Assembly (NCBI GenBank): GCA_019448385.1
Contig: JAGTXO010000004.1
Span: forward strand, 1,240,001-1,304,000
Direction of reading: 5' to 3'
DNA from: Diacronema lutheri
Lineage: Eukaryota; Haptophyta; Pavlovophyceae; Pavlovales; Pavlovaceae
DNA length: 64,000 nt
Under the pieces are notes generated by a model that was given only the letters and a program-made list of their open reading frames with translations, was not told the DNA's origin and did not search any database. How positions within the stretch are numbered: the first letter of the stretch is position 1; the number at the start of each line of letters is the position of its first letter. The translations under genes were made by a program, and so were the position numbers. Below are positions 18,740 through 49,175 of this stretch, piece after piece.

Positions 18740-18771
<32 letters not shown>

Positions 18772-26799: not shown

Positions 26800-26849
<50 letters not shown>

Positions 26850-27054: not shown

Positions 27055-27392
27055 CTGGACGTCGAGCGTGTGCGCCTTGTCCGCACGTGTGCACTCACGT
27101 GCGTCTGCGGCGATCTGCCCGGCGTAGTAGTCCGCGCGCGCGGGAGCCGCGTCGGCAGTAGGAGCAGGATAACGTACTTGCGCCTAAGGAGGACGGCGAG
27201 AAGTGCGGCTTTTCGCTCGGGGTCTACCATGCCGCCGAGGTTGGCGCTGGCGCGCGTGAGGCAGTCGGAGCGCGCTGGGCCCGGGTTGAAGGCCTCACCC
27301 CGGGGGACGGGAGGATTCAAGGCGCCGAGCCGCTGCGGGTGCGGCGGGAGGCCCCGGGCGGGTGTGCTAATGCGGCTCGATGGCCGCCTGCC

Positions 27393-27440
27393 GGGGGGGG
27401 GGGGGGGGGGGGGAGGGGGGGGGGGGGGGGGGGGGGGGGG
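27393..27440 (-). repeat. G homopolymer (21 + 26)
   Basis: G runs 27393-27413 and 27415-27440 separated by one A. C-rich on the reverse strand. Confidence 0.9.
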
Positions 27441-27841
27441 TTGGGCCGCCCGCGGAAACGGAGGTGAGCGTGTGGGAGCGGCGCGCGTCGGCGCGCGCGG
27501 CTGGCGTGCAGCACGGATAAGTCTTGTGTGGACTTCGCGGGGCGGATCCCGGTGCAGGGATTGCCGACGTAGGCCGCGAGCGCGAGCAGGGCGGGGATGA
27601 AGACGGATGATGGGGTTGGGGCCAAGGCCGCCGCACCCGCAGCTATCACGGTGGCAGCGACCGCCACGGTCAGTGCGAGGCTCGCGTGGCCGCTGCGCGG
27701 GCAGCTCGCCCGCCAGGTCCAGGAGGGCCGGCCTGCGGCCTCAGTGCCCAGCGTTGGGCATGTCAGCGTCTGCGTCTGCGGGCCCGCCACTGCGATGGCG
27801 CATTGAGCCTGGCGCACCAAAACGCAATCGGTCCGCCGATC

Positions 27842-27869
27842 GGGGGGGGGGGGGGGGGGGGGGGGGGGG
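27842..27869 (-). repeat. G28 homopolymer
   Basis: Twenty-eight G residues; C-rich on the reverse strand, in line with a reverse-strand intron. Confidence 0.9.
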
Positions 27870-29237: not shown

Positions 29238-29257
29238 GGGGGGGGGGGGGGGGGGGG
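29238..29257 (-). repeat. G20 homopolymer
   Basis: Twenty G residues followed by TGGTGGTGG. Third tract of this kind in the unresolved region. Confidence 0.9.
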
Positions 29258-29776
29258 TGGTGGTGGCAACCAGGATCCGCCAGCGCGTGGTGGGCGCCGT
29301 CCAACTCCCAGCCAGGATGCGCCCCGTTCTTCCCCGACACTCTCCGTCCAAACCCGCCGCCCAGCCTGCCGCCGCACCCGCCGCCAACGCCGCCGCGCAC
29401 CCATCCGCCGAGCTCACCTCGCGCGCGCTCGCGCTCACGCTGCGCGACGAGGCTGCGCAGGCCGGCGCGCGGCCGTGCAGAGCAGCGCAGGCCGGCGCGC
29501 GGCCGCGCGCGCGCGCTCACGTTGCGGCCGCGCAGCGAGCTTTCGCCGCGTCGCAGCCCCTCCGAGCAGCCACGATGCACGCCCCCGGAGGACGTTGGCC
29601 GCGCTCGGAGGCCGCGCTCGGGCGCGCAAAGAGAGGCGGCGCGGGCAAACGAGTAGGCTCGGCGCGCTGGCGGGTCCTGGTTGTGGGAGAGCGGGGCATT
29701 CTCCAGGGCATCATGTAAATTCTCCCAAGTATCATCCGGGCCGCCATCCGGACACTGACGTGCCCACAGTCTGCAG

Positions 29777-32700
29777 ATGGAGGACTCCGTGAAGGACGCT
29801 TTGCCCGGCGGGCGGGGCGGCTCGGACAGTTTCTCGCTGGCCCTCAGCACCATTCTGTCGCCGGGAGATACCCACCCCCACGTGGTCCCATCCACTTGCC
29901 TCATCGCCCTGCTGCGTTACGCGGATTTCGGCACGAGCAGGGTTAGGGTGGGCGACACGGGGTGCTCGCAGCATGCGCTCAAGGTGGCGCTGCGCAACCT
30001 GCGCAAAGCATGCGCGGATGCGGACCGGCTTGGGCAGGTGCTCGTGGTCGTGCTACCGCTCTGCCTCCGCGCGTCCAGCGGCCTCGTGCACTGGACGGCG
30101 GCGTACCTGCTCCTCGCGCCGCCCGCGCAGCGCGGCGCGCCGCCCGGCGCCGCGCTCGCCCTGCTCGCCGATTCGCGCACCTTGGGCAACGGCGAATCGG
30201 CGTACGCCACGGCGGCCGGCGTGCTCATCAAGAAGCTTGCGCAGCGCATCGGCAGAACAGCGCCGCCCATCGATGCCTTCAAGGCGCCCCCGCAGAGTGG
30301 GGCCGCGTGTTGCTTCGCCGCGGCAACAGTCGCGGCCGAGGTCGTGGCGAGCGCATCGACGCTCTACGGCCGCCGCGCGAGTGTCCTTGTCGACATCAAG
30401 AAGGCTTTGGACGCGCGCCTCGCGCGCCTCACGACGGCCGCGTACGAGGAGACCCGCGCGCGCACGCTCCGCGCCGCCATCGGCGCTCTGCTCGGCGACC
30501 GCGCCAGGCGCTTCGGCCCGTTCACCCGCGAGGCCGCGCGGCTCGCCGAGGCCGCGCGGCTCGCCGAGGCGTGCGATGCCAGTGTCGGCGGATCCGCGCC
30601 CGACGGGCTGCTGCAGGCCGTCGAGGCGGCGCTGCGCGCGCCCGACGACCGCATCGCACGCACGGCCGCGCTCGACGCGCTCACGGGCGCTGCAGGCCGC
30701 GCGCTGTCGACGGCGGCCAGGCCGCGCGGCGCGGCGGCGCCAAGGCCGCCGTCGCGAGCGCCACCGCCGCGTGCGCCGCAGCGGCGCGCCGCCTCGGCGT
30801 GGGGGCCCCGACCATTCAGCAGCCTCGGCGGGGGCGAGGGCGACGGGGACGATGGCGACGCCACCACCGCTGACGACGGGGAGGGCGCGGAGGACGGGGA
30901 CGACGACCCCGCGGGCGCGGCGGCTGCGGCGGTGGCGACGGGCACGGCGGCGACGAGCGCGGTGGCGGCGGGCGCGGCGCCAACCTCGCCGGCGGCGTCG
31001 GACGGCGGTGGCTCGGCGCCGCTCGAACGCCGCTGCGTCTACACTGCGCCTGATGAGGGCGACGCGGACGCGCGCGTGTACGACGCCAAGGACCCCGAGC
31101 AGCTAAAAGCGGGCAGGGCGCGGCTACGGGCGAACAGCGGGCGCGCGCCCGCCGTGGTCGACACGCTTTTCGCGCACGCGACGGGCACGATCGTCACGCG
31201 GCAGCGCACGGAGGGCGTGACCGGCGCGGGCATGCACCACCTCGCCGCCCCGACGCAGGGCGCGGGGTACGGTACCGTCGTGCGGGCCGAGCTGGGCGAG
31301 CCCGGCTTCGCGGGGACGACATGGCACATGACGTCGGGCGTGGAGAACCAGCCGCGCGCGGTACGAGCGGCCGCGCGCGCGTACGCGCACGACGGCTGGG
31401 GCGGCGTGTACAATGCGCACGAGGACTTTGCCGCCTTCGAGGGCTTGCCGCGGCTCGCCGCGCCCGAATCGCTCGCGGCCATCGCCGGCGGGTCGGCGGA
31501 CGCGGTGTTCTGCTGGCGGTCCGGCCGGTCCGTCATCGGCGAGGTGACGACGGTTCACTTCAATGGCGACCGCGCCGCCGCCATCGACCACGCGCGGGCG
31601 CTGCGCGTCAGGCCCGATTGGCGCTCGCAGCCCAGGATCTACGAGGCGGCGTGCGGCGCGGAGGGCACGGTGCTGCTCGTGTGGGTCGTGCCCGACCGTC
31701 ACAAGAACCCGCGGCTGGACTGGGCGCCGATTCTCGTCGTGATCCACCTGCCCGCCGACCCCGACTGGCTCGCGCGCGCCACGCCGGCGATCGCGAAGGC
31801 GCGGCGCGAGGTCGAGGACGGACGCGCGCGCGCGGAGGCGCGCGGCGTGCCGCAGCACCTCGCCTACACGCTGAGCCCACGCTTCCGAGGCACCGCGCCG
31901 CGCGGAGCCGCGCGCGTGCCGCCGCGCCTCGGCGCGAGCGACGCGCGCGAGGCGCGCGCGCTCGCGGCGCTCGAGCCGGCGCTCATGTTCGCGCCGGCCT
32001 GGCGGCGCGCGGTGCGCGCGGCGAGCCGCGCCCCCGGCAGTGGCGCCGCGGCCGTCGAGCGCGCGCTCGCGCGCCTGCACAACGCGCTCGAGCCCGATGA
32101 CGAGAGCGCGCCCGAGTCGACGCGCGTCGCGCCGCTCGCCGCCGCGCTCGAGCAGTCGGCGGGCTGGCCGGCGGGCACGGCGCGCATGGCGGCAAGCGTG
32201 ACCAAGGGCCCCGGCGTCGGAGATGGCGCAGGTGGCGACGAAGTGACCAAAGTGGAGGAAACGGCGAAGACGAGCGGCGACGGCTGCACCGGCACGCCTC
32301 CTCTGCGCCCGGCCGCGCGCGCGGCCGGCGCGGCGGACGACGGAGGGGCGGCGGTCGTGGCGGGCGTCGAGGGCGAGCGCGACGCACTCGCCAAGACGGG
32401 TGCCGGCGGCTGCGACGACGACGCTCGCGAGCCGCTGTCGGCCGGCAAGCCCGGCGCACTCGCCGCCGCGGCGACCGTCGGGGGTCTCGGCGAGCTCGTC
32501 GGCAGCCTATGCGCGTGGCTGGCGCGCGGCGCGGCTGGCGGCGCCATCGCGGCCATCTCCCCCGGGACGGCCGCGCGCGGAGCAAACGGCACGCCGCAGC
32601 GCGCCGAGCCGCCGGCCGCCGGCGATCCCGTCGCTCCGCACGCGCGCGTCGCCGCTGCGGCGCCCTTGGCGGGCAGCGCGGCGGCGCCGTCGTCGGCCGC

Positions 32701-35700
32701 GCGCGACGCGCAGCGCGGCGTCGCGGGATTCGACGCGGCCGCGCACGCGCACGCGCGCGACGGCAGGCGGGCGGCACGGCGGATGCGCGAGCAGGAGGGG
32801 GCGGTGCACAGGGCCTTCCGCATGTCCCTCTGGCGCGACGCGACGTTTGTCGAGTTCGTTGAGAAGCTGCGCCCCGACGGCGGCGCGCAGCTGCTCGCGC
32901 GCGAGCCCACGCGGCGCGCGGCGGCGGTGCTGTGCGAGCTCGCGCGCGGCCGCGACGGCGCGAGCGGCGCGGCCGGGCTGCTGCACGAGATGAGAGCCGC
33001 CGATGCGCGCGCGCGCGAGGCCGCCAAAGCGGCGGAGGCAGCGCAGCTTGCGCACGGGACGCTGCGCATCGTGGCAACCGTGGCGCTGGGCGGTGCGGTC
33101 TTCGCCGGCATGTCAGCGCTGGTCGTTGCTTGCGCGGCGCGCACGGCGACCGGTGCGCTTTTTGGGGCCCGCCGCCCGCGGGCGGCCGCGCGCGGAGCCG
33201 ACGACGCGCTCGGCACGCTGCAGCGCGCCAAGCCGCCGCCCGCCGACAAGGGCAAGCGCAGGCGCGCCAGAGCCAACGACGACCCCGTCGACGCGGCGCG
33301 CAAGGCCGTGGGCAAGGCGGAGGGCAACTGCCGCAAGGCAGCCCGCCGGCTGCACCTCGCTGCACTGGGCGAGGAGGAGGCGCAGCAGCGCGTGCTCGAC
33401 GCCGAGGCGGCGGAGCAGCTGGCGCGCTCGCGCGAGCCGGCCGGCGGCTGGGTAGGCAGCGCGCGCGCGCGCGCGCGCGCGCGCCCCGCCGCGCGCGCGC
33501 CCGTCGATTGGCGTGCGCGCAGCGCAGAACGGCGCGCCAGCTCCGTCACCTGCGCGCCGCCGCGCCCGTGCCCCTCGCGCGCAGGGGCGCCCTGCGGACC
33601 TGCGGCTGCAACAGGCGCACTTTGGCATGCGCGAAGATGCCGACGCGGATGTGCGCCGCGCGCACGAGGCGCTGCGCCGGGCGAGACAGGGTGTGGCGTG
33701 CGCCAAGGCCAGCGTGCGGCAGATGGAGGCGGCGTTGCTCAACGCGACGCGCTGCGCCACCGCGGTGCTCGCGCCGCGTGGCGTGCCGGAGGGTGACGAG
33801 CAGGCCGCGGCGAGAGAGCAGGCGGCGCTGGACCGGGAGGCGCCGCCGGCCGCGCAACGCGCGGCGCCGACGGCGCGCTCGCCCTCGGAGCCGCCGTCCG
33901 AGTGGGGCCCGCCAGCGGTCGGCCGGCGCCCGACGCCGCGTGCACTGTCGCACGCCGCGGGTCGCGGGGACGACAACCCGTTTGCGCCGCTCGCAACCGT
34001 CAGCGGCGATTGGTCGCCCACGCCGAGCTCGCGCTCGCCGTCCTCGCCGCCGCGGCAGCCGCCGTCCGACCGCCGCAGCGCGCAGCGTCGCAGCGCGCGC
34101 GCGCGGCCGCCGAGGCCGACCGTTTCGCCCGAGGACGCGCTCGCAGCCGAGCGCCAGGCGCGCGCGCTGTCGGAGCAGGCGGAGCAGAGGCGCGCCAAAA
34201 AGGCCGCCGCCAAGGCCGCGCGCCGCGCCGCGCGCGCCGCCGACAAGCGGACGGCGCGCGTCGTCCACGCGTGCGTAAGCGCCGCCTTGCGGCGCGTCTG
34301 CACGAGCGTCGCCACGGGCACGCCGCTCGCCGTGCTCCGCGAGCGCGCCGAGGGGCCGCGCGCGCCGAAGCCCGCGCCCGCGCCGCCACGCCGCGCAGCG
34401 GACGGCGGCCGCGCGCTCCGCCACGCGCGCCGTGCGGCCGCCGCGGCGGCGGAGCGCGAGGCGGCGGTGGCGGCCGACGCCGACGAGCGGTTCGAGCGGC
34501 AGCCCTCCGCCGCCCGGTTCGACGGCGGCGATGGCGGCGGAGGCGGCCACGTCGAGGCGAGCGCGCGACCGCGCGCCGGCGAGGCCGGCGAGGCTGGCGC
34601 GCACGGCGCGCCTGGCGCAGCGGGGACCCCGGCGGCGTCGCTCGCGTCGCGCAGCCCGTGTGATGCGCGCCGCACGGCACGCCTCCCGCACGCACGCGCC
34701 GCAGCCACCTGCGCACGCAACGGCGGCTGGGGTGGCAACGTCGGCGGCGACGTGTGCGGCGGTTGTTTCGGCGGCGGCGGCGTCCGTCGCGACGCCTGCG
34801 GCGGCGGCGACGCCACCTGCGGCTGCGGCGATGGCGGCGTCGGTGCTGGCGCTGGCGAGGCCCCTGCACACGGTGCGCCGGCGCGCGCGACGGCGTCGCG
34901 CTTGCTGCGCTTGCTCGGCGCGCCACGCGCCGTGCTCGGTGCGATGGCGCACGCCGCGGCCGTGTTGGCGCGCGGCGTGGCCGCAGCCGTCGCTGGCGTG
35001 CGCGCCGCCGCGCGCGCCGTGCGGCGCGCGCGCCGCCGAGCGCCTCGCGCGCGCCGCACGGCTGCGCGGCGGGCTCGCGGCCCGCCGATGCGCGACGTCG
35101 ACGGCGCCCTGCGGCCCTCGCCGTCCTGGTTGCGCACACGCCTCGTCTGCGGCCGGCGCCTCGCGCCTCTGCGCCGCGCGGGCGCGCGCCCGCCGCCCGC
35201 ACACGCCGCGCCGAGTTCCCGCGCGCGCGCTGCGCAACCCGACAGCGACGCGCCGGCGTGCGCGCCGCGGCGCTCGGCGCCTGTCGGTGCGCCGCCGCGC
35301 GCGCGTGGCCTGCGCGCGGCGCGCGCACGGCGCTTCCTCGACGTCGCCGGCCGCGCGGCGCGGAGCGCGCGCCTCGGCGCGCGCATCACGCGCCAGCGCA
35401 CGCCGGGTTCGCCATCGGAGCCCTGCACGGCCGAGAGCGGCGACGGCGCGGGCGCCGGCGGCGTCGGCGCGGCGGCGCCTGGCGCGGCGACGATGCGCGC
35501 CACCGGCGCGCGCGCAGCGCGCGCTGCGGCGGCGGCGGTCGGTGGCGCCTCGCGTCTCGCGCGCCGCGCGATGGCAAGCGCCGCCGCCGCTGCCACCTCC
35601 ATCGCCGGCGCTGCCGCCTCCACCGTCGCCGCCGCCGCCGTTGCCATCGGCGCGGCCGTCACGTCACCGGCGTTCGCCGCGGCGCGCGGCATGGCGGCCG

Positions 35701-38018
35701 CATGCGTCGCTGCCTGCGCCCGCCCCACCGCCGCGCAGGCGGCCGCGTCGCGCGCGCTCGGCGCGCTCTTCGTGCTCGTCGACGCGGCCGACGCGGCGGG
35801 CGACAGCGACGCCGCGCTCGGCGCGCTCGCGGCCGCGGTCGACGCGACAGAGCTGCGCCCGCCGCCGGCCTTTTGGCGCGCGGGCCGCGCCGCGGCGTAC
35901 GCACCGCGTCCGCCGCCCCTCGACTCGGCGCGGCCGCGCTACAACCGGCGCGCGCGCGCACCTAGCCCTCCCGTCGCGGCCGCGCGGCGCAATCTCGCGC
36001 GCGCGGTGCGCGAGCTCACGCGCGCCGCGCGCGCTGAGCGCGAGCGCGCGCCGGCGCCGCGCGGCGCGCGCGGCGGCGTGCTCCACGCGCTGCGCGCGTC
36101 GCTCCCCGTGCACGCGCGTGCCGCGCTCGGCACGGACGCGGAGCTGCGCGCGGACATCGCCGCGTTCGCGCGCGCGCGCCGCGAGCTGCACAGCCTCACC
36201 GACGCCGAGGTGGCGGCGCTCGCGCGCCCGGACGGGCCGCCGCTGCCCGTGCGGCTCGCGTGCACGGCGGTCGCGCGCGCGCGCGGCGTGACCGTGCTGC
36301 TCGACATCGTGCCGCGCGGCGGCGGCGCGCCCGAGCGGCTCGTGTGCCGCGCCCGTCGCCGCGGCGCCGCCACGCGCACGCCACGGCCGACAGCCGCCGT
36401 TATCGCGCGCGCGCCTTGCATAGCGGCGCGCGTTGGCCACACTGAGCCGGCGCGCGCGTGCGCGGGCGGATCGATCGGGGTCGCGCGCCTCCGTTCAGCG
36501 CGCCGCCGCTCTTGGCGTGGGGCGCGGCTCGACGTGCACACCCGCGAGCGGCTGGCCACACCGGTGCCAGGCCACGTCGTGGCCTGCGCCGCCGCCTCGG
36601 CCATCGGCGCGTGCGTCGCTCGCGCGCGGCTTGGGCTTGCACGGCTGGCGCGCGCGTGGCCCTGCGCCTCCGCTCCACTGGCCGCTGCTGCTGTCGCCTT
36701 CGCGCCTGCCGCCGACGGTGTTTTCTGCGCCCCGCTGGGCGCTCCTGCATCCGCCTTCGCGCCTGCCGCCGACGGTGTTTTCCCCGCCGCACTAGCCGCT
36801 GCTGCATCCGCCTTCGCGCCTGCCGCCGATTTTCCCGCCCCACTAGTTGCTCCTGCATTCGCCTCCGCGCCTGCCACCGACGGCGTTTTCCCCGCCCCAC
36901 TAGCCGCTGCCGCTGCCGCGTCCGCGCCTGCCGCCGCGGGCGCGTCTTCCGCCCCACCAGCCATCGCCGCCGCGCCCGCCGCCAACGCGCGCACCGCCAA
37001 CGTGCCCGTTGCCAACGAGGCTACCGCCACCGAACCAGCCGCCCTTGAGCTTCCCCTCCAACCCGCCAACTCGGCGCTGCTTGCGTGGGCGGGCGACGCG
37101 GCTGCGCGCCGGCTGGCCGCCGCCGCCGCGAGCGCCGGCCTCCCGCAGGCAGAGGTGGAGCGCATCGCCAGCGGCGACATGCTCGCCTCAACCGTCGACG
37201 CGTGCTGCGAGGTCGTGCTGCGCGTGCACGGGCAGGCCGGCGGCGGGCATGTCTGCCACGTGCCGCTCGCCGCGCAACCCGCGGTGTTTCAGGACGACGC
37301 CGAGCGCGCCGCGCTGCTGCACCGCCTGCGCAGCGAGGCGACAACGCAGGCTGTCATCGGCGTGTGGAGCCCGTCGGACGAGCGCGGCGGCGCGGGCGGT
37401 GACGACGGCGCGCAGCTCGACTCCGGCCATTTCACCGCGTTGCGCCTTGTGCGCGTCGCGCGCGCGGGCGAGCATCGCTACGACGCGGTGCTCGTCGACA
37501 CGCTCGCGTCGCCCTGCAGGCAGGCGCTCATGCTCGCCAAGGCGATAACTGCCACGCTGCACGCGGCGGGTCTCGACATTTCGCGCGTGCGCCGCGCGCT
37601 GCTGCTCAACGAGGCGGCGCAGCGTGGCGCGACGTGCGGCCTCGCGATAGTGGGCGCGCTCAACGACGCGCTCGCCGCGGCGGGCTGCTCGTCCGCGCCG
37701 CGCACGTTCAGCGTGGCGGACATGTACGCTGTCGGCGAGCGCCTCCGCGTCGCGCTGACCGGCGCGGCCAGCGATCGTGCGCCGGGCGGCGTCTGCGCGG
37801 TCACGAGCGCGGTGCGTGGCGGGGGCAGCCCCGATCGCGCCGAAACGCCGCCGCAGACGCGCGGCGCCAAGGCCGCCGCTGGCGTCACCGCCGCCGCCAC
37901 CGCCGCCGCCACGCCGCCGCCGCCCGCGCTGGGCGCCGCCGCCGCCGCCACCGCCGCCGCCGCCGCTGCTGCCGCCGCCGTGGCCGCGCCGCCACCGCCG
38001 CCACCGCCGCCGCCGGCC

Positions 38019-38095
<77 letters not shown>

Positions 38096-41000
38096 GCGCA
38101 CGTTCTTGAAGCTCGCGCCCAGGGCGCGCGCGGCCGCCTCGGCGCGTGAGGCGTTGCGCGCCGCGTGTGCGCGCGCGGACGCGGCGGCGTCGTCACACGC
38201 GTCGGCGCCGCACGCGCCCGCCGGTGCGCGCCGCCGGCGGCGCGCGGGCGCAGGCGAGCTGGCGCTCGCGGCTGCGCGCGCGCTCGCCTCGACGGAGCAC
38301 GGCGATTTGACGGACGACGCGCTCGAGGCCGCCGTCGAGCAGGAGCTGGGCGACGAGCGCGGCCAACTGCTGCTGTGCACGCGGGGCGCAGCGGCGCAAA
38401 GGCCCGCGCTTTGCCGGCTCCTGAAGCACGCGTGCGCGTCGGCGCGCGCGGCGAAGCGCGCGCAATTCACGGTATTCGTCGTGCGCGCGGCCACGCGCGG
38501 CGAGCGGGGGGGGCGCCGCCGCGAGGCGCGTGGACTCGGTGGTCGAGCTGTCGTGCGCGCTGCACGAGAAGGCGGGCGCGCTCGGCGGCCTCCAGCGCGT
38601 CTGTGTGCGTGGCTTTGCCCTCGAGCGCCGCCGGACACTCGACGCTGGCGCCGAGGCCGGCGCGTCCGCCATCGGCCAGGACGAGCAGGTCGAGGCAGAG
38701 GCGGGCGAGGCGTGCGTCGCCGGCGTGACGATGGCCAAGCAGCTGCGTCAGTTTGCCGAGCAAGCTGCCCGCGACGACGTGCTCTTCCACGTCGCCGTGT
38801 CCGAGGCCGACGCCCACGCCCGGCTGGCGCGCGTTGCGGGTGACGATGTCGGCGCGTACAGCGTCGTGCTCGCAGTCGCCGGGCTCGTCTGGCTGGCCAA
38901 GGCCAACGAGGTTGCGCCGGCGGCCGCCCAGTCCGCCGCCGTGCCGCCCGCCGCCCCGCCTGCTGCCGCCACGTCCGCCGACGCCGAGCGCGACGCCTCG
39001 CCTTCCGACCGCCTGCGCGCGCTGACGCTCGCCGTGCGAGTCGCGCTCGCGCGCGGCGTGCTGCGCCACCTCCTCGCCGACGCGTCGCCGGGCGCGTCCG
39101 CGACCGCTGGCGGTAGTTGCGCGACGCCCGTCGAGGCGGCCGCGTCCGACGCCGCGCCGCCCGCCACGGGCGTCGTGACGAGTGGCGTTGCGGCGGGCGC
39201 TGTGGCGGCCGCACCGGCTGCTGCGGGCGGTGCGATGGCGGGTGCATCGCCCATCGCGCGGCCGGCGAAGCGCGCGCGGCGCACGCTCACCGCCGCTCCA
39301 GCCGCCTCGGCCGTTGCGGCCGCTGGAGGCGCACGCGCGGGCGCACGCGGCGCGGCCGGCGCGCCTCGCGCGCGCGCCGCGCGCGCGCCGGCCGAGTACG
39401 TCTGGCTTGCCATCGCGCGCCGGATGCTGGCGGCGCGACACGCGGCGGCCGCGGGCGGCGACTTTGTCGCGTCGTGCGTCGCCGCGATGCAGGCCGAGTA
39501 CGGCGACGGCTGTGCCGTCGTCGTCGGCGACGCGCCTGGTGACGCCTTGGTCGAGGCTGCGGCGGCGGCGCTGCTCGAGGGCAAGCACGCGGCGGTGAGC
39601 CTCGGCTGCGTCGACCGGCCGGCGGTGCTCGTCGTGCAGCGCGCCGTGGACGCGCCCACGTCGCGCGTGCACGGGTGGTGCGCGCACGCGGCGGGCGCCG
39701 CCGAGTTTGACGAGGGCGCCGCGCGCGACGTGTTCAACGCGATCGTCGAGCGCGCGTGGGCGCTGCGTCCGGACCCGGCCGACGGCAGCCCGCCGCCCAC
39801 GCGCACGTGGGAGGTCGAGCAAATCGCTGACGACGCGCCCGACCAGGCGGGCGTGGCCGCGCTGCGCGTGCTCTACGCGCTCGTCGCGGCGCACGGCCGC
39901 TACCGCTCGGCCGCCGCGCTCTTTGGCGCGATCGCGCAGCTGCACGCGCCCGACGCCGCCGGCGCGCGCGCGGAGGTCGTCGCGGCGGCGTGCGCGGTGC
40001 CGCCCGGCGCGCGGCCGGGCGCCGCGCCGGCGGCCGCGCGGGACGACGCGAGGGAGCGCGCATGGGAGGGCGCTCAGATCGCCGCGCTCGCCGTCGGCGC
40101 GGACGCTGCGCGCAGGCGTGTCGCGCCCGTGCGCGCGCTCGTCGACGCGCTCGGCACGCCGCCGACCTCGGCGATCACGGGCGGGCCGGCGGTGCGGCTC
40201 GCGGGCGCGGGCGACGGCGGCCACGGTGCACGGTGGGTGGGCGGGCAGGCGGCGACGCCCGCCGAGCAGCTGCCGAGGGAGCTGCTGCGCGCCTACCACG
40301 AGGCGGTGCTGTGCGTCACGCCCGGCAGCCTCCAGCTCGGCCCGGCGGCGCTCGACGCGGTCACGCGGCCGCGCGAAAACGACACGCTGGAAGGCCTCCT
40401 CGCGCGCGTCAGCTGGCAGTGCGGCGCGAGGGCGAGCACGTGCGCCATGCTCGCCACGTTTTCCGAGCAGGCGGGCACCGGCTCGCGCGTCGCGCTCAAG
40501 GCCCTCCGCACGAGCTCCGACCTGGCCGGGCTGACGGCGGCTGCGGTCGGGCAGCAGGCGCCGCAGACGCCGCCGCCGCCGCTGCTCGTGATGCTCGGCC
40601 GCTGCCCCAGCCCGCTCGTCGGCGGTGGCCTCTTCCCGCCCGACCGCGCGACGGGCGAGCCGGCGGTGCACGCGGCGACGTCCGAGCTCGCCGTCGAGCT
40701 GCTGCGCGACGCGCGCGCGCTGGCCGGCACGGACGGGCGGCTCGTCGTGCTGTGCCTCGAGGCGTCCAACCCGCTCTGGTTCTGCCCCAAGGTGCGCGAG
40801 CTCGAGCTGCCGCGGACGCGGTCGGACGGCGTGCGCGCGTCCGGCTGCACCTGCCCTGCGACGTGCAGCGATGCGCGCGGCGCGGCGGGTGGCGCTGCCC
40901 GCGGCGCATCGACGCGGCCGGCGGCGCGCGCGATCAACAAGGCGGTGCTCGACCACTTCGTCGCGCTTTTCGGCCGCGAGGGCTTCGCGACCTTTGAGTT

Positions 41001-44000
41001 TGCGGGCGGCGGCGAGGCGAGCTGGCTGTGCGACAGCGCGGCCGGCACGACGACCGTCGCGGCGTGCGCGTCGCTGCCGCCGCGCATGGGCGATGGGCAG
41101 CTGGCCATCCGGCGGCACACGCTCGGCACGGGCGCCGACGCGCCGGCGCACGCCGTCGTCTCGCTCCGCGTCGCGCACGTGAGCCACGCCATCCGCCGCG
41201 CGGCGGACGACGGCGGCGCGCGCGCCGAGCGGATGGCGCGCGCCGCGCGCGCGTTTTGCGATGTGGCGGCCGCGCTGCGCGTCGACGCGATCCTGGCGGA
41301 GGTGCCCGAGGACCGCCCGACGGGCACGCCCTTCCTTGGCGGGCTGCTCAAATTTTGGGACAAAGACCACGGGAGCTCGACGGCGCCAGCCACGCTCGCG
41401 CTCGGAGACGTGCGCGAGGTGGCCAAGCGGACGGCCGACGCAGCGGCCGGCCGAGCGGACGAGGTCCCTGCGGCTGGCCGTCCGCAGGTCGCGGCGCGCG
41501 CGTGCGCTGGCGCGATTGGCGGCGGCGCGGGCGCGGCGGGCGCCTCGGACGCTGCGCCGCGTGCACTGGCGGGCGCGTCGGGTGCGCGCACGGACGGCGG
41601 CCCTGCCGACGCACCGCGCCAGCTGGAGAGCCGCTACGGCGAGGCGAGCAAGCTCGACCTACCCCAAGATTCCACTACGGGCCGCGTCCTCGACGCTCGC
41701 GAGGCCCAGGACCGCGCGCGCGTGCCTGCTGCGCCCGACGGCACAGCGCTGCGCCGCGTGCTCGACGCCGTCGGCGCGGGCGCGCCCGCGCAGCGCAGCC
41801 CGCGCTGGCACGACGAGCGATGGGAGGAGGTCACGGGCAGCAAGGTTGGCGACGTCGTGAACGACAACGCCGGCGTCGCGCACGAGACGCTCACCGACGA
41901 GTACGTGCACCGGCGGCGGCGCGAGGTGCGGACCAAGGCGACGACCGCGGGCATCCTCGGCGAGGCCGTCGCGCTGCGCAAGCTGGCGGCCGCGTACGGC
42001 ATCACCGTCGTGTGCAACCTGCCGATGGTGCGTGCGGACCCGCACGACAAGAGCGCGCCGTTCGCCTTCTCGCCGGACGGGCTCGCGATCCTCCCCGAAA
42101 ACAACGAGCAGGTCCTCGTCGAGGTGAAGACGCTCACCAAGGCGGGCGCCACGGCGCACGAGGACGGGCCGCCGCAGCCGCACCGCGATCAGCTGCAGCT
42201 CGGCATGCACGTCCTCGGCGTGAGCAAAGCGCTCTACGTGCAGTACCTCAGGCACGAGGACCGGATCGTCGTGCACGTCGTGACGCGCGGCGCCGGCTGG
42301 CTTGCATTCGCGCAGCCGAGGGTGCAGGCCTTCTGGGCGCGCGTCGTCGAGCGGCGCGCGCGGCTCGAGCGCGCGCGCGCCGACCACCCGGCTGCGAGCC
42401 GGCGGCACCGGCGGCAGCAGACGCCGGCCGGGCCGCCGCTCGTGCTCGCGCTGGACGGGCGCATCCCCGCCGCGCGCGCCGCCGCGCTGCACGCCGTCGC
42501 GCACGGCACCGCGAGCGCGGCGGCGGTGACGGCGGCGGCGGCGACGGGCGACGCGACGGCGTTGCAAGACGCGATCGCGGCGCTGCGCGCGCCCGTCGGC
42601 AATGCGGCGATCGCCAGCGCAGCGCGTGCGGAGGGCGCGGCCGTCGAGCGGGCGATCGCGTACCTCGGGCAGCCGGCGGGCGACGCCGCCGCCCGCGGCA
42701 CGGCCGAGGCGGCCGAGGAGGAGAGGACGGTCGACGCCGACATCTGCGCGTTGCTGCACCAGCTCGGCGCGAGCGTGGCGCACGTGCACGTCGAGGACGC
42801 GGATTGCGTCACGCGTGAGCACTGGGGCGAGGCGGTGCTCGCTGCAGCGGACGACCCGTCGAGCGCCCCCGCCATTTCGAGCGTCATCGTCGCGCACATC
42901 GTGCGCCTCGCCGGCTTTGGCGTCGAGCTCCCGCAGTCGATTCGCGTCGCCCCCAGCACGGCCGACTGGCACGAGGGCTGGCTCGACGTGCAGTGCGTGC
43001 TGCTGCGCACGCGCCGGCGCGGGCGGCGCGACGACGACTTTGTGGCCGTCGTCAGGCGCGGTGGGCGCTGGTTTGCGTGCGAGCCCGGCCGCGCGCGGCG
43101 GCTGCAGTGGCGGTCGGTCCTACGCCGCGCGCGCGGCGGCGTCGACGGGACCGGCGAGGAGGCGTTCGCGATCGTCTACGTGCGGCGCGGCGACGCGGCC
43201 GGCGACGCGGCTGGCGACGCGCAGGCCGCACGGGCGCGCGGCGGGCGCGCGCGCAGGCGCACGCGCGGCGGCACGCGCAAGCGCAAGCGCGGCGCCTCCG
43301 CCGGGCTCGAGGCGGCCGCGCCCGCCGGCGCGCCGGCTGCCGCGCCCGCCGGCGCGCCGGCGGGCGCTGCTCACCGCCCGCCCGCCATGCGCGCCACGGT
43401 CGCCGCGCGCACCACGCGCTCTGTGACCGACGCGCTGCACTCGGCGCCTGCCGCCACGGTTGCACCTGTCTTCGACTGGCGCGCCGGCCGCCCGCCCCCC
43501 GCCGCTCGAGCCCGCCACCCGCGGCCGCGTGGGCGCGCGCCACCGGGCAAGGCCTGGGACAGCGTCTCGGGTGCGTGGGCGGACAAGCCGACTGGTGCTG
43601 CCGTCGCCGCCGCGCCGCCGCCGCTGCCGCCCGCCGCCGCGCCGCCGCCCACCGCCGCGCCGCCGCCCGCCGCCGCGCCGCCGCCCGCCGTCGCGCCGCC
43701 GCCCGCCGCCGCGCCGCCGCCGCCGCCGCCACCGGCGGCGCTCAACCGCTGGCAGCACGTCGGCGCGGGCGGCAGCGCGGCGGGCCGGCGGCTCGCGGCC
43801 ATCGCACGGCGGCAGCGCGGCGTGCGCGCGCCGCCGCCCGCCGCGCGCTTCCTCGCCACGCTGCCGCCACCGCCACGCGACGGCCTCGCGCGCACGAGCA
43901 AGCAGGCGCGCGCGAGGCGCAACGCGGACGGACGGCCGGCGCACGCGCGCGCGGCCAACGCGCGCGCCTTCTACCGCGGCGTGGAGCTCGGCGTGCACGC

Positions 44001-47000
44001 GACGCGCGCCATCGTCGACGCGCGCCACGCCGACCTGCCGCAGGCCGTCTTCGTGGCGGAGGCGCGGGCGATCGTCGCGCGCTCCGCCGGCGGCGGCGCG
44101 CTGCTCGCGCCGGACGACGTGCGCGACCTGTGCGACGCGCAGACGGACGCCGATCGCGCTGCGATCTGGGCGTCGGTGGGCGCGCACGAGGCGACGCGCA
44201 TCTTCGCGCTCGTCACGCGCAACGCGAGCTTGGCGGGCGCGGCGCTGCTCGTGCTGCACACGCCGGCGGGCGCGCCGGCGCGCGCGCTCGGGCTCCTGGC
44301 GACGCGCTCGCGCGCGCCGTCGACGGGCGCGCCGCGCGACGCGCACAGGGCGCTGGTGCAGCGGTTGGACGTGCTGATGGACGCGATCGCCGCGGCGCGA
44401 GGCGCGTCGCCGCTCGAGCTCGAGCTCGCGCTCGCGCCCGAGCCGCAGAGCGCGTGCAACGCGCGTGCGGCCGCGCTGCTCTGCCTGCAGGCCGTCGCGG
44501 ACGCGAGCGGCCGTCCCGCCGCTGAGGACGCGCTGGCCGCGCTCGACGACGCGCGCGGCATCGACCGGCACTGCCACGCCGTCCGGCAGCAGATCGAGGC
44601 GAAGCTCGCGTGGCGGCGCGCCGACGGCGCCGTCGGCGTTGACGGCGCCGACGGCGCGCCCGCGCTCGCGCCTGCCGCCGCACCGCCGGCGTGCGCGCCG
44701 GCGCACGCTGCCGGCGAGGCGGCGGTCGACCAGGCGATCGTCACGCGGGTGCGCGACGCGCTGCGCGCGTGGGCGACGACTGGCACCGCGCCCAGCGCGG
44801 CGGTGCTCGACGACGCCTGCGCCGCGTACACGGCCCGCGCACGCGCGCGCAAGGACGCGCGCACGGCGCTGGGCCCGACGCGCGCGGCCGAGCTGCTCGC
44901 CGCGGCCGCGCGCGGCGGAGCCGACGGGGCGGATGCCGCGCGCGCGCTGCTCGGCGGCACGCCGCGCCTGCTCGTCGTGCTCCTCTGCGTGCCCGTCGCC
45001 GCGCCGTCCGGCGAGCCGCCGCGCCCGGTCGGGCTGCTCGTCGCCGACCGGCCGACGGACGACTCGCGCCCGGCCGCGCTCGTGCGCTACGACTTTGCGC
45101 CGCTCGACGCGGACGTGGCCGTCGCGGTCGGCGCGCATGCCGTCGCGCTGGCCAGTGCGATCTGGCCGCTGCTCGCGGCCGAGGGGGAGCCGCGGCCATC
45201 GCCCGTCGTGCGCTCGCAGCCGCGCGGCGGCGACGATGGCGCGTGTGCGCTCGCAACGTTCGCGTGCCTCGACGCGCTGATGACCGCCAGCGTCGGCGCG
45301 CACGGCCTCGCGGGCGGCGCGGGCATGCTGCCCGCGCTGGTCGCGCGAGGCGCCGCGGCCGCCCAGCGCGAGCGGCAGCTGCGCGCGGCCGCCGAGAGGC
45401 TGGGCGGCACGGTCGCTGGGTGGCCGGACACGGGCGCGAGCGCGGCGGGCGCGAGCGTCGACGAGGAGGCGCGCACGTACGAGGTCGAGGCGGTCGTCGA
45501 CGAGCGCCGCAAGGCGGGCAAGAAGGTGACGTTCCAGTTCCGGATCAGGTGGCGGGGCTACGACGAGAGCGCCGACACGTGGGAGCCTGAGGCCAACGTG
45601 AGCAGCGACCTCGTCGCCCAGTTCCGCAAGACGCGCGACGAGCAGAAGCGGCGCGCGGGCGGATCGGGCAGCGGCAGCGGCGGCGCGGGCGCGGCGTCGG
45701 CATTGGCGTCGGCGCCGCTTCGCGCGCACGGCGAGTCGGGCGCCGCGGGCAAGCGCGCCGCGGCGGGTGCCGCCGCGAGCGCGCGCGACGCCGCGGGCGC
45801 GCGCGCGCCGAGCGTTCCCCGCGCGCGCGGCGTCGAGCGCGCGCGCGTGGACGAGCCCGCTGCGCCGAGCGCGCGCGCCGCCGGCGGCGCGACGGCGCGC
45901 ACGCGCGGCAGCGTGCTCCCGGGCTTCGTGGTCAAGCGCTCGACGCTCAACGCGGGGCCGCAGGCGGTGACGGCGCAGCCCGGTGCGCGGAAGGAGCTGC
46001 GGCGCATCGCGGCGGCCGTGCACAGGCTCACGACACAGGCGTACCGCGTCATCAACAAGGTGGTGCGCGACGAGGCTGCGGTGGCGAGCGCGCAGGCCGT
46101 CGGCGCGGCGTCGGGCGGCCCGTCGACCAGCGTGCACACGTCGACCACGATGGACAAGGGATCCGTCCGTGCGATCTTCTCGGCCATCGGCTGGCACAAG
46201 GACGAGAGCACGTACGGTGCAGCGCCGCGAGGCAAGCCCGCCGAGCAAGCCGCCGCGCAGACCAAGGCGGCGACGGCGCGCGCCGTCGGCGAGATGGCCG
46301 AGGGCGTCCAGCCCGTCTGCGCGGTGGGCCTCACGGAGATCCTCGAGGCGGAGGCGACGCAGGTGTCCACCGCGTGCCTGATGCACCCATCGCGCGTCGT
46401 GAACGGGCTGCTCCGCGACGTCGTCCGCGCGGCAGTCGAGCGCGACGAGGCGCTCGTCGCGCTGCCCGAGATGCAGCGAAACGCGCGCGTGCGCGAGCTG
46501 TGCGAGCGGCTGCTGCGCGGCGACGTGGAGGGCGCGCGCGTCGGCTGCCCCGCCGCGCTCGACCGCCACCTGCCCGACATGGTCCTCCACAAGATCGACT
46601 ACAAGTGCACGCCCACGAAAAGGTGGAACTACGACCGGCACACGACGCGCTACTTCCTCGTGCAGATCCGCAACCTGCAGCACGTGGCCGAGGGGCAGGC
46701 GCTGCTCTGCCGGCTCGCGCACATCCACACGCAGCTGACCGGACGGCCGCCGCGGTACAATGTGGCGCCGCTGCGCACGCACAATGTGCGCGCGAGGCGT
46801 GGCTGCCGCTGCCGCCGCCGAGCGCCCAAGCGCGCGCGCCGCCGCCGTGCGCGCCGCCCCGCGGCCAGGTTGGTCACGCGCCCGCGCGCTCGCGCGCCGC
46901 GCGCTGCGCGCAGGTGCCGCGCAACGTGCGCCTCGCCGCGAGCGCCATCTGGGTGACGCTTTCGGATGACGAGCGCAAGGAGCTGCGCGCGCGGCTCAAG

Positions 47001-48418
47001 GCGCTGGACCTGCGCGACCACGATGGCGAGCCGATCAAGTGGACAGGCACAAACGGCAACACCCCGCCGATGTCGGACGTGCGCGTCAGGTACGCGGTCT
47101 TTGCGACGCGCTTCGACATCTCCAACCGCGTCTTCGACTACGCCGGGCGCGAGCGGCCGCCGGCCGATCTGCCGTGGCACGCGCGGCGCTCGTGGGTTGG
47201 CCTCGCGCCGCTGCCGCGCGTGCCGCTCCCGGGCCGGCAGCCCGTCAAGTCGGTGGTGACAGATGGCGTCGCCGTGCACGCCGTCGGGACCGTCCTCGTG
47301 CCGAAGGCGCAGGCGCCGGCCGGCGGCTCGGGCGTCCTGCACCGCTGGCGCCGGCCGGACGGGCGCATCGCCGTCGCGCTCGGCTCCGAGCTGCGGCGGG
47401 CGATCGACGTCGAGGCGGCGGTCGTCGTCGCGGCCGACCCGAACATGGGCAACATCACCACCTACTCTGCGCACGTCGGGCGGGCGGCCGTCTGGCGGCA
47501 GTTCACGCAGCGCGCGCGCGCGCGCGCCGCGGGCTTTGCGCGCGAGACGGCCAAGACCAACGCGGCGCGGCGGCGCGTGCGCACCGACGGGCGCGGCGAG
47601 GAGTTCAGCGTGGAGGCGGACGAGGCGCGGCTTGGCGAGGCGCACAGCGCCAAGGTGCTCGACGCGGGCAAATACATCGCCTTCCACCGCGAGAGCGCGC
47701 GGGTGCGCGAGCGCGCCGCCGAGCACGTGTACGACGCGCCGGCGCGCCGGAAGGAGCGCTGGCGGCGCGACAGCGGCGGGCGGTCCAACGCGGCGCGCGT
47801 CGCCGAGGCGCTCATCGCGGCGCACTGTGTCGACGGCGTGACGCGCGACCGGCTGCTCGTGTGCGTGGGCAAGTGGCTGCGCGACCACAAGGGCGCGCAG
47901 CCCAAGGGCGCGCCGCCCGCCTTCCAGGTGGGGCTGCTGCGCGAGCTGCGGCGGCGCGGCGTCGCGGCCGTCTTCGTGCCCGAGCCGTACACGTCGATGC
48001 ACTGCTCGATGCCGCGGCTCGCCAAGGGCGGCAGGCTGCAGCGCTGCGGCGCGGAGCTCGCGCAGAACCCGCGCCTGCCCGTGGCAAAGGGCGGCACGCG
48101 CACGGTGCACGCGCTCGTCATCTGCCCGGCGTGCAACGGCGGCAAGAAGCCCGTGCACCGCGACTACAACGCCGCGCGCAACATCTTCTACGACGTGCAC
48201 GACATGGCGGCGCACGCGGCCGGGCGCGACACCACGTCGACGCCTGAGCGCTTTGCCCTCGTGCTCGCCTGGTGGGCGCGCGGCGAGGTGTGGGAGCGTG
48301 AGGAGCGCATGGTGCACGGCGAGGGCGACGACTGCGACGACGAGTGCGACGGCGACGACGAGGGCGACGACGAGGGCGACGACGACGACGACGACGATGG
48401 CAGCGGCGACGGCGGCGG

Positions 48419-48451
<33 letters not shown>

Positions 48452-48638
48452 AGGCGGCGGCGGCGACGACGACGATGACGGCGGGGGAGGCGGCGGCGGC
48501 GACGGCGGTGGCGACGACGGCGGCGGGCGCGGCGGCGGTGGCGGCGGCGGCTCTCGCGCCCGCACCCCCGCCCGCGGAGCTGCCAGCGCCAGTGCCGGCG
48601 GCGGCAGCGCGCGCGGGCCGAAGCGCGGCCGGCGTTGA
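29777..48638 (+). CDS. Giant multidomain protein: Ulp1-like modules, YqaJ nuclease, chromodomain and C-terminal Fanzor
   Basis: ATG at 29777 (MEDSVKDALPGG). Proposed exons: 29777-33451, 33585-38480, 38596-46785 and 46914-48638, all phase 0, about 6,160 codons. The last intron is well supported; the first two are plausible (short, GTAGGC and GTGCGC donors, CAG acceptors) but could hide gene borders, in which case the third unit starts at or before ATG 38731. Order of parts: C48-like 1; an unknown alpha/beta region (31.1-31.9 kb); a hydrophobic helix (about 33.06-33.15 kb); Ala/Arg-rich linkers; C48-like 2; a poly-Ala run; an unknown region; YqaJ nuclease; a Pro-rich linker; C48-like 3 and 4; chromodomain; Fanzor; an acidic Gly/Asp tail. 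No stop codon interrupts this path. No capsid, envelope or polymerase domain is seen. It may be a mobile-element protein, possibly domesticated. Confidence 0.6.
30080..30330 (+). other. Peptidase C48/Ulp1-like module 1
   Basis: Residues about 100-185 of the giant protein. The order is that of the adenain/Ulp1 fold: His105 in HWTAAYLLLA, Asp132 in LALLADSRTL, Gln173 in PPQSGAACCF, and Cys178 or Cys179 as nucleophile. Preceded by VVPSTCLIALLRYADFG. Recognised from the H-D-Q-C spacing, not from overall identity. Confidence 0.5.
33058..33150 (+). other. Hydrophobic segment in the giant protein
   Basis: IVATVALGGAVFAGMSALVV is long and hydrophobic enough to cross a membrane, flanked by basic GARRPRAAARG. 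If real, the N-terminal part may be membrane-tethered, odd for a chain that also carries nuclear modules; this favours proteolytic processing or a gene border nearby. Confidence 0.4.
33452..33584 (+). other. Predicted phase-0 intron 1 of the giant gene
   Basis: 133 bp, GTAGGC donor after GGC TGG, GCAG acceptor before GGGCGC. Downstream the frame reads ADLRLQQAHFGMREDADADV, a good coiled-coil continuation of EEAQQRVLDAEAAEQLARS upstream. The stretch includes a CG dinucleotide run at about 33465-33483. Confidence 0.5.
37060..37760 (+). other. Peptidase C48/Ulp1-like module 2
   Basis: Best preserved of the repeated modules. His in SGHFTALRLVRV (CAT 37428-37430), Asp in DAVLVDTLAS (GAC 37497-37499), Gln in NEAAQRGATCG (CAG 37621-37623) and Cys (TGC 37636-37638), followed by LAIVGALNDAL. 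The helical start is LPQAEVERIASGDMLAS. Confidence 0.55.
38020..38096 (+). repeat. Poly-alanine (GCC)n run
   Basis: About 25 GCC codons, preceded by Pro/Ala-rich sequence from about 37900. It forms a disordered or helical linker between module 2 and the next segment. Confidence 0.9.
38481..38595 (+). other. Predicted phase-0 intron 2 of the giant gene
   Basis: 115 bp with GTGCGC donor after AQFTVFV and CAG acceptor before RVCVRGFAL. Both flanks look coding in their own frames and the intron joins them without a stop. Alternatively two genes meet here and the second starts at the ATG at 38731 (MAKQLRQFAEQ). Confidence 0.4.
41795..42270 (+). other. YqaJ-type PD-(D/E)XK nuclease domain
   Basis: Family of phage and eukaryotic-virus recombination exonucleases, also found in mobile elements. 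SPRWHDERWEEVTGSKVGDV opens the domain, with GILGEAVALRKL as the first acidic helix. The catalytic Asp is in FSPDGLAIL (GAC 42076-42078) and the E-x-K in VLVEVKTLTK (GAG 42121, AAG 42127), then the Gln helix RDQLQLGMHVLGV and ALYVQYLRHED. All catalytic positions are present. Confidence 0.8.
42880..43200 (+). other. Possible papain-like (USP-type) closing fold
   Basis: DDDFVAVVRRGGRWFACEPGR and EEAFAIVYVRRGD resemble the last strands of ubiquitin-specific proteases (xVAxVRxGxxWxxC...YxLxYxR), but the catalytic His is replaced and no clear Cys box is seen upstream. Could be a dead peptidase module or chance likeness. Confidence 0.25.
43600..43740 (+). repeat. Proline/alanine-rich linker (AAPPP units)
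   Basis: Repeated GCCGCGCCGCCGCCC-type units encoding AAPPP. A flexible linker between the nuclease half and the C-terminal half of the giant protein. Confidence 0.8.
44200..44500 (+). other. Degenerate C48-like module 3
   Basis: RIFALVTRNASLAGAALLVL, ARALGLLATRSR and EPQSACNARAAALLCLQAV follow the strand, strand, Q-x(2)-C order of the other modules. The His may be the one in VLHTPAG; the Asp position is not acidic, so activity is doubtful. Confidence 0.35.
44960..45290 (+). other. Degenerate C48-like module 4
   Basis: RLLVVLLCVPVA, PVGLLVADRPTDD and VVRSQPRGGDDGACALATF give the Asp and a Q...DDGAC block like the QxxDCG of Ulp1 proteases (Cys codon 45244-45246). The His position seems lost. 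Directly precedes the chromodomain linker. Confidence 0.4.
45463..45636 (+). other. Chromodomain
   Basis: EARTYEVEAVVDERRKAGKK, then FQFRIRWRGYDESADTWEPE and LVAQFRKTR: the complete chromodomain pattern (YxVExIxxxR, YLVKWxGY-like RIRWRGY, xxTWEPxxN). Aromatic-cage positions Tyr (YEVE), Trp (RWRGY) and Trp (DTWEP) are all present. Expected to bind methylated histone H3 or similar. It is in the same continuous frame as the Fanzor N-terminus 290 bp downstream. Confidence 0.9.
45920..48270 (+). other. Fanzor (eukaryotic TnpB-like OMEGA) nuclease core
   Basis: RNA-guided DNA endonuclease family related to TnpB/Cas12. Starts near VLPGFVVKRSTLN (first WED strand) and VHRLTTQAYRVIN. The hallmark YNVAPLRTHN continues across the intron as VPRNVRLAASAIWVTL, and TDGVAV follows. 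RuvC-I is VVAADPNMGNITTY (Asp codon 47436-47438). RuvC-II is FVPEPYTSMHCS (Glu codon 47982-47984). The zinc-ribbon cysteines are in MHCSMP, LQRCGAEL and VICPACNGG. RuvC-III is HRDYNAARNIF (Asp codon 48162-48164). All three catalytic acids are present, so the domain looks intact. The pattern is closest to Fanzor1; subclass not proven. Confidence 0.9.
46786..46913 (+). other. Intron inside the Fanzor domain
   Basis: 128 bp, GTGCGC donor and GCGCAG acceptor, phase 0. Splicing turns two frames into the conserved Fanzor motif PLRTHN/VPRNVRL, which is strong evidence. Splice signals match those of the surrounding housekeeping genes, so the element is adapted to host splicing. Confidence 0.85.
48320..48600 (+). 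repeat. Asp/Gly-rich C-terminal tail of the Fanzor protein
   Basis: GAC/GGC trinucleotide-rich sequence encoding acidic and Gly runs, ending in a basic GPKRGRR just before the TGA at 48636. The terminal KRGRR could act as a nuclear-localisation signal. Confidence 0.85.
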
Positions 48639-49175
48639 CGCACGGCCGAGCCGCGCAGCGGTCGACGCTTTGCGGGCTCTGCCCAGGTCGCGCGCGGCTG
48701 GCGACGCGTGCCGCGCGCGGCACGACCGTGCACGCCGCCACCCGTGGCCGAGCGCGCCGCACCAGCCGGCCCGCTCCAACCGCCGTGCGGATCACGGACG
48801 CTCGCTACGGCTCGTCGGCGCGCGTCACCTGCGCCGGCGGCCACGGCGCCGTCTGCTCCGGCTTCGTCGCGAGCAGCCCGACCGCTGCTCGCCGCCCGCA
48901 CGCCGCCGCAGCAACGCTGCGCGTCGTGCTCCCCCGCTCGCCAAACGCGAAGAGCTCCCTCACAAGGACGTCCTTCCGAACGGCCCGCGCTGCACTCGGG
49001 GCGCGATCGTGCCCCTGATCGGATTTGGCTTGACCATCTATACGGAAGCACAAAGCGAAAATCTAGGAGTAGCATTATTTTAAGGAGGTTTCACCTCTTC
49101 GACTCTCGTCGCATCTCGGCAAGGAGCGCGACCGCTTTGCGAGCGCGGGTGGGCACCGCCTCCCCGGCCCCTGCA
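48639..49175 (+). ncRNA. 3' flank of the Fanzor gene; candidate omega-RNA / element end
   Basis: 537 bp without a supported gene between the Fanzor stop and the elongase stop. In known Fanzor loci the guide (omega) RNA lies at and beyond the 3' end of the nuclease gene up to the element's right end, so it should be sought here; this is positional inference only. The first 370 bp are GC-rich and open in several frames. From about 49020 the sequence is clearly AT-richer (ATTATTTTAAGG), a compositional border that may be the element end or 3' UTRs. No terminal repeat identified by eye. Confidence 0.3.

Follow-up and report, generated by a model that had tools for sequence, protein, structure and literature searches.

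Known Fanzor carriers and the D. lutheri locus

Fanzor nucleases are known from many kinds of transposon, including Helitron2 and a possible Crypton (PMC3627910, PMC10711439; for these and the other cited papers, statements refer to the parts of the text that were available). The SPu-1 Fanzor element is about 2.1 kb long, and the most abundant repeat of the alga Auxenochlorella is an uncharacterised Fanzor element (PMC12636532). The locus described here lies in a 64,000-nucleotide stretch of the haptophyte Diacronema lutheri (contig JAGTXO010000004.1, positions 1,240,001 to 1,304,000), which as a whole is called the window; the D. lutheri NIVA-4/92 assembly has a guanine-plus-cytosine (GC) content of 73.25% (PMC8379373). 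Window positions 18020 to 49043 hold a recently active, giant element of this haptophyte. Its probable anatomy is that of a recent giant transposable element whose main gene encodes a polyprotein ending in a Fanzor nuclease.

Several features are shared with described systems. As for other Fanzors in transposons, the carrier is mobile and multi-copy and the N-terminal region very variable; like the Auxenochlorella repeat, it is high-copy in an alga. The Fanzor motif of Bao and Jurka, D-X(125,275)-[TS][TS]XX-C4 finger-RD (PMC3627910), is present with a gap of 184. A second fingerprint combines DPG with the alternative glutamate Ealt (PMC10711439); here the RuvC D-E-D set is complete, with its glutamate at the Ealt position six residues ahead of the first finger cysteine, and the D is followed by P. 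Compared with the DPG and CxxC form of that fingerprint, the D. lutheri protein has DPN rather than DPG, and its first cysteine pair is separated by 13 residues (CX13C, then CXXC). With phage RecE, YqaJ and lambda exonuclease the element shares profile matches and the motif set D, ExK and Q.

The differences lie in size and context. The element is 31 kb long, and its Fanzor, unlike that of SPu-1, forms the end of a predicted polyprotein of about 6,200 residues that also contains a YqaJ nuclease domain and a chromodomain; no transposase, terminal inverted repeat (TIR) or target-site duplication (TSD) was recognised. In contrast to phage RecE nucleases, the YqaJ domain is embedded in a eukaryotic giant polyprotein, and no RecT partner was recognised in the element frames scanned. 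A natural Fanzor fusion of this kind is not mentioned in the available parts of PMC13153721, PMC10820777, PMC10711439, PMC3627910, PMC10432273, PMC6338049, PMC6431247 and PMC12636532, and Jiang et al. 2023 may hold one. We read a Fanzor-carrying transposon as known, and a Fanzor that would form the end of a YqaJ–chromodomain polyprotein as new.

Extent, ends and copies of the element

The genome searched comprises 43,492,796 bases in 103 contigs, designated below by C and a number. The window was compared with five further copies (on C5, C17, C27, C30 and C85), taking 40 kb around each. The main features of the element and its giant gene are as follows.

18020..49043, plus strand: giant transposable element, complete copy of the long form, 31,024 bp (copy comparison)
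18020..18034, plus strand: left end, CTATATA[C/G]GGCGCGG, where the unrelated flanks of 25 copies stop
29777..33451, plus strand: giant gene exon 1, 1,225 codons, frame open in the three long copies compared
33452..33584, plus strand: probable GT-AG intron, phase 0, 133 bp (from the sequence)
33585..46785, plus strand: giant gene exon 2, with a G-run length difference inside (copy alignment)
41797..42213, plus strand: YqaJ / RecE / lambda-exonuclease-like nuclease domain (PHROG 434, motifs)
45475..45600, plus strand: chromodomain (PF00385, E=3.5e-12, 46.5 bits against a cut-off of 25.1)
45913..46785, plus strand: Fanzor N-terminal part, assigned by position and by frame with YqaJ and chromodomain, not by profile
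46786..46913, plus strand: probable GT-AG intron, phase 0, 128 bp (from the sequence)
46914..48638, plus strand: exon 3 of the giant gene, with the RuvC and zinc-finger part of the Fanzor, an acidic/Gly tail and the stop at 48636-48638
48639..49043, plus strand: region 3' of the Fanzor stop, identical or nearly so in 40 of the 40 copies listed (283 candidates)
49030..49043, plus strand: right end, ...TTGACCATCTATAC, at the computed place in 21 of 25 copies

The borders, copy number and gene order of the element are read directly from these comparisons. Identity between the window and the five copies starts at 18020 (18116 for C5, which lacks the first 96 bp at the left and is outside the 25-copy set) and stops at 49043-49046. 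The C85 copy is 99.4% identical across the full length; that on C30, which misses about 450 bp, aligns as two pieces with 99.3-99.5% identity. The Fanzor core (47232-48272) occurs at no fewer than 117 genome places, with 98-100% protein identity and no stops (412 candidates), and the YqaJ profile matches at least 150 places, the window included (203 candidates). That 18020-49043 is a mobile element is, on this evidence, close to certain.

The agreement of the left ends holds by selection, because 20 of the 25 copies were picked from exact left-end matches. On the right, 21 of the 25 copies have CTATAC where it was computed to lie, followed by a full flank; of the other four, three stop at the end of a contig and one departs from the pattern. 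Read by hand from coordinates, the left end and the core of the 20 chosen copies are about 29.2 kb apart in 11, 24.2-24.7 kb in three, 19.8 kb in five and 10.8 kb in one.

The copy flanks show no target duplication beyond chance (the observed mean is equalled or exceeded in 126 of 200 shuffles of the flank pairs) and no conserved left-flank motif, that is, no candidate target-adjacent motif (TAM). The first right-flank base is G in 16 of 21 copies, with no other target motif. No clean empty site was found among the matches listed when the joined flanks of the 25 copies were compared with the fetched loci. Copy flanks often lie within small repeats, and left and right flanks match different repeats. 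These small repeats (window 17850-18019 and other copies) end like TATACTAACG.CG / CG.CGTTAGTATA. In the window and C69 copies the left flanks are the same repeat, with a short unmatched filler before the element.

Contigs C12, C14, C32 and C33 start or end at the right end of the element, while C49, C69 and C72 seem, by eye from positions, to begin at its left end. A telomeric explanation of the right-end contig ends was dropped for this reason: assembly breaks at the element are the likelier, and probable, cause.

Reading frame of the giant gene

The preliminary description of this DNA proposed a single giant gene of about 18.9 kb, with three short phase-0 introns and a chain of up to about 6,160 residues. 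Long open frames do lie at the stated place (29777-33796, 33513-38843, 38530-46956 and 46374-48638), and two of the introns fit. The gene is thus borne out in part, though it does not stand free: it belongs, as principal gene, to a multi-copy element of 31 kb, which that description missed. For the intron at 33452-33584, 30-bp stretches across both splice sites are identical in all three long copies; in about 200 bp compared around 46786-46913, the C17 copy differs from the window by two bases, both within the intron.

The proposed second intron is instead a one-base difference. In the G run at 38506-38513 the window is one base longer than all five compared copies, in which the second and third window frames merge into frames of 4,509 (C30), 4,507 (C85), 4,191 (C17), 4,088 (C27) and 4,090 (C5) codons. 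No second intron is needed, since these five copies read through about 38.5 kb in one frame. The C97 and C98 copies have the same shortened frame length as the window (2,843), and the extra G could have been inherited or could be a sequencing error made more than once. When spliced at the two remaining introns, the C30 copy gives 6,209 residues with its sole stop at the end. We infer two introns and one transcript, and the product is probably a giant polyprotein of about 6,200 residues in the long form and, by arithmetic, about 4,480 in the short form described below, ending in a Fanzor nuclease.

YqaJ, chromodomain and Fanzor domains

Profile searches of the individual segments had been suggested for peptidase family C48, YqaJ, chromodomain and Fanzor; the last three matched and C48 did not. 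The YqaJ region matches PHROG 434 (RecE-like) with E=1.8e-15 and TIGR03033 with E=3.8e-7 (30.3 bits, below the cut-off of 68.05). Pfam YqaJ (E=0.018) falls short of its cut-off in the window protein but exceeds it at all 150 genome places listed. The motifs SPRW, GxxGE, SPDG, EVK and QLQ are present; we take the D, ExK and Q set among them to be the catalytic residues of lambda exonuclease. A PDB sequence search with this region returned no nuclease, and in the protein database no relative was found at E<=0.001 for YqaJ alone or within a larger protein (8,000 and 7,999 scored candidates). These profile matches and motifs bear out the nuclease first suggested, as the Pfam match does the chromodomain, whose closest PDB chromodomain match has E=3.2e-9.

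The Fanzor assignment likewise holds. PF07282 is matched with E=2.4e-6, 28.0 bits being just above the cut-off of 26.3, while the NCBIfam profile guided_TnpB gives E=0.027, far below cut-off, and a PDB sequence search yielded no match at E<=0.1. The active-site positions are in place (D at 47436, E at 47982, TSMHC at 47991-48005, RD at 48159), as are the finger cysteines at 48003, 48045, 48123 and 48132. A protein search with the Fanzor part gave one match, P0005, a protein of 570 residues from a 2,435-base record that is 99% identical to exon 3 and begins at a GTG 12 bases past the acceptor of the last intron. It has the appearance of a gene predicted on DNA that was not spliced, in a different copy or strain.

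The genome also holds a second multi-copy Fanzor family (for example C69:648735-661962), about 29% identical in the RuvC part. The D-E-D and finger positions are invariant there too; DPG occurs in one of two copies aligned, and the cysteines form CxxC pairs. This family was considered as a relative of the same architecture and rejected, the long frame of one copy being without YqaJ or chromodomain by eye. Its protein seems to stand alone and has a long N-terminal part of low complexity.

Long and short forms

The short form (C5, C17, C27) is 21.57 kb long and has the left 2.4 kb and right 12 kb in common with the long form, with shared middle pieces at 87-96% identity. About 10 kb of the long form has no nucleotide match in it, apart from low-complexity matches. 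The N-terminal part of the short form is different, with no nucleotide match to exon 1; a stretch with an H-D-Q-C arrangement, YqaJ, chromodomain and Fanzor are retained. Each form is contiguous at three loci. Divergence between the forms is a mosaic, with a synonymous difference (pS) of about 0.17 at 37.1-38 kb and near zero over the last few kilobases, which suggests recombination or gene conversion between them.

One gene or several

YqaJ, chromodomain and Fanzor are likely to be parts of one gene product. Four things favour this reading: the frame is continuous, it recurs in many copies, order and spacing are fixed, and one span has no in-frame ATG. In the codon-position GC plot of 29601-48400, 42 of 47 bins of 400 bp show the expected plus-strand frame. 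These include every one of the 17 bins between YqaJ and Fanzor (41601-48400), that at 43201 weakly. One frame runs through YqaJ, chromodomain and the Fanzor N-terminal part, and it is single in the five copies. In 200 order-2 Markov simulations (19 kb each) no frame was as long as the 4,509 codons of C30, and frames of at least 4,000 codons bear the YqaJ match at 105 of the 150 places listed. A listed YqaJ lies 5.41-5.46 kb upstream of the Fanzor core on the same strand for 80 of 117 cores, and YqaJ is at the expected place in 17 of 20 cores sampled from the other 37, giving 97 of 100 examined; 17 of the 117 cores fall outside this check, and the element copies are recent and non-independent. 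In C30 an in-frame ATG 50 codons ahead of the chromodomain is followed by no other until 79 codons into the N-terminal part of the Fanzor, so a Fanzor made separately would have to begin internally or use a different first exon.

Several observations pull the other way. Five of the 47 codon-position bins are off frame (34801, 35201, 36401, 36801 and 39201), all upstream of YqaJ. YqaJ-bearing frames have 3,000-3,999 codons at 22 and fewer than 3,000 at 23 of the 150 places listed, and in three of the 20 sampled copies the expected place holds no YqaJ. The one match of the Fanzor protein search, P0005, consists of the Fanzor exon by itself, as predicted by a gene finder. The ratio of nonsynonymous to synonymous differences (pN/pS) between long and short forms is 0.50-0.52 in the two stretches at or nearest the diverged part, which favours the one-gene reading. 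It is 0.65 over the shared giant frame and 0.93 without the diverged stretch, and two segments have 1.12 and 2.04, all ratios being based on few changes. Selection on the whole giant frame is not established by these values, given the 0.93 and the two segments above 1.

The same points could be explained by two or more neighbouring genes in a chance-open frame, for example a YqaJ protein followed by a chromodomain–Fanzor protein of about 1,100 residues that begins with the methionine codon at 45325. GC-rich DNA makes an open frame alone weaker evidence than it looks: simulated frames reach 3,385 codons (mean 1,194), and antisense 1,787. In-frame ATGs stand just ahead of the chromodomain, and the database record begins just past the last intron, though at a gene-finder GTG. 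The frame kept in every bin from YqaJ to Fanzor, the long frame in both forms examined and the fixed YqaJ-to-core spacing all speak against separate genes, which we consider unlikely.

Peptidase candidates and other genes

Four further features of the element fall outside the domains considered above.

20019..20905, no strand: nested inverted repeats in the left part of the element (repeat search)
21462..23793, plus strand: PIF1-family (SF1B) helicase gene, exon borders unsettled (PF05970, E=3.7e-14)
25604..26305, plus strand: USP/UCH-like cysteine protease gene (PF00443, E=4.3e-8)
37425..37640, plus strand: candidate H-D-Q-C arrangement resembling a C48-type cysteine peptidase (motif by eye)

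The preliminary description also saw several Ulp1-like peptidase modules in the giant gene, and these were dropped. The C48 (Ulp1) profile has no match in the giant-gene stretches scanned by Pfam, and its nine places genome-wide include none within the listed element copies, compared by eye. Among the 15 pairs of six candidate modules, similarity reaches z 2.6 at best (four to five of 200 shuffles are as high). PDB sequence searches with the candidate modules gave no support, and the AlphaFold single-sequence model of one module is of low confidence, with a mean predicted local distance difference test score (pLDDT) of 42.9. The USP-like gene at 25.6-26.3 kb appears to be a better cysteine-protease candidate than the giant-gene modules; its Cys box starts at 25625 and its His box at 26243, both presumably catalytic. 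Exon 1 has no Pfam match, and rescanning two of its stretches at E<=10 produced a single match at chance level. A stretch at about 31.4-31.7 kb resembles a decayed nuclease by eye; Pfam and NCBIfam scans of exon 1 found no domain.

The helicase motifs start at 22464 (Walker A), 22697 (DEAP), 22811 (GDFRQ), 23420 (RNL..GLC) and 23686 (FTHGQLHVAASRV); the gene probably contains introns, because the motifs fall in three frames. The inverted repeats comprise four arm pairs of 89-207 nt, 94-99% complementary. Hallmarks of cut-and-paste transposition are missing: no TIR, no TSD above shuffles and no transposase domain (such as DDE) in scanned frames. Pfam and PHROG scans of the element frames revealed neither a transposase nor a recombinase; for the tyrosine recombinases of Crypton and Starship elements, general frame scans gave no match, their own profile was not run, and introns may hide one.

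To the left of the element, window positions 1744-14225 hold ordinary host genes, with GH5 cellulase-like, HEAT-repeat, Rubisco-LSMT/SET-like, FkbM methyltransferase and IF2_N matches. Just to its right, 50836-54996 is a frame of 1,386 codons without a Pfam match.

Alternative readings of the element

One alternative takes the Fanzor as cargo and the whole element as a giant transposon of the rolling-circle, Helitron-like type. The element encodes a PIF1-type helicase, whose motif set we take to be like that of Helitron helicases, and hairpins can be drawn near both ends. It further resembles Helitrons and Helentrons in lacking a TSD and in carrying a cysteine protease, which is OTU in Helentrons and USP-like here (PMC3627910, PMC6431247), and a Fanzor-carrying Helitron2 is known in Chlamydomonas (PMC3627910). 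The element differs in that it has no Rep/HUH match and other ends, and measures 31 kb without evident captured host genes. The single genome match to the Helitron Rep profile PF14214 is on C63, where no element copy is listed, and the six frames hold no searched HxH motif followed by Y..K or Y...K within 20-220 residues. Complementarity between the outermost bases (70 on the left, 150 on the right) nowhere reaches 7 bp, the ends are not TC/CTRR, and there is no preference for A|T targets. Taken together, a Helitron-like origin seems quite unlikely.

Acquisition of a Fanzor by a DNA virus, now endogenous, or by a Polinton-like provirus would account for the 31-kb size and the gene mix, which recall large mobile or viral elements, and Fanzors do occur in large DNA viruses (PMC3627910). 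The larger frames scanned, only three of which are on the minus strand, contain no capsid, polymerase or packaging domain, and scans of viral contigs with Fanzor and YqaJ confirmed no relative; we regard a viral origin as highly improbable. That some contigs break at element ends (C12, C14, C32 and C33, at the right end) might point to an assembly chimera. These junctions recur next to many unrelated flanks, and the element is contiguous at the three long-form and three short-form loci, which makes this explanation scarcely credible.

Proposed mechanism and significance

For the giant transposable element, guided cutting, resection and recombination are proposed because the parts for them (Fanzor, YqaJ/RecE, helicase) are present; what the sequence provides is this presence alone. 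In such a break-and-resect cycle, an RNA from the right end would guide the Fanzor part to cut DNA matching the flank of the donor copy, that is, the empty allele. The RecE/YqaJ part would resect the break to a 3' single strand, and the PIF1 helicase of the element could extend or displace strands. Repair from the element-bearing copy would then restore or spread the element. Anchoring of the complex on marked chromatin may fall to the chromodomain, and protection or processing of the polyprotein to the USP-like protease and perhaps the H-D-Q-C stretch.

The guide-RNA scaffold of a Fanzor is expected in the region after its stop. The fold of this region (48639-49043) is no better than mononucleotide shuffles (z -0.5 to -1.4). 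With no TSD, no left-flank motif and no unusually stable right-end fold found, the evidence does not favour the guided-cut step, and we hold the break-and-resect mechanism as a whole to be doubtful. It is less probable still that the element represents a new class of giant transposon, in which guided breakage (Fanzor) and resection (RecE/YqaJ) would be combined in one protein, with its own helicase, a chromatin tether and no classical transposase, for spread or maintenance.

The element would make up a substantial part of this genome: by estimate, 3.2-4.7 of 43.5 Mb if all 150 listed copies are full length. A fusion of Fanzor and YqaJ in one protein extends what is known of how Fanzor proteins and giant transposons are built. 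A natural Fanzor–exonuclease fusion in many near-identical copies would also offer a concrete, testable answer, a guided break with recombination, to the question of what Fanzors do for transposons.

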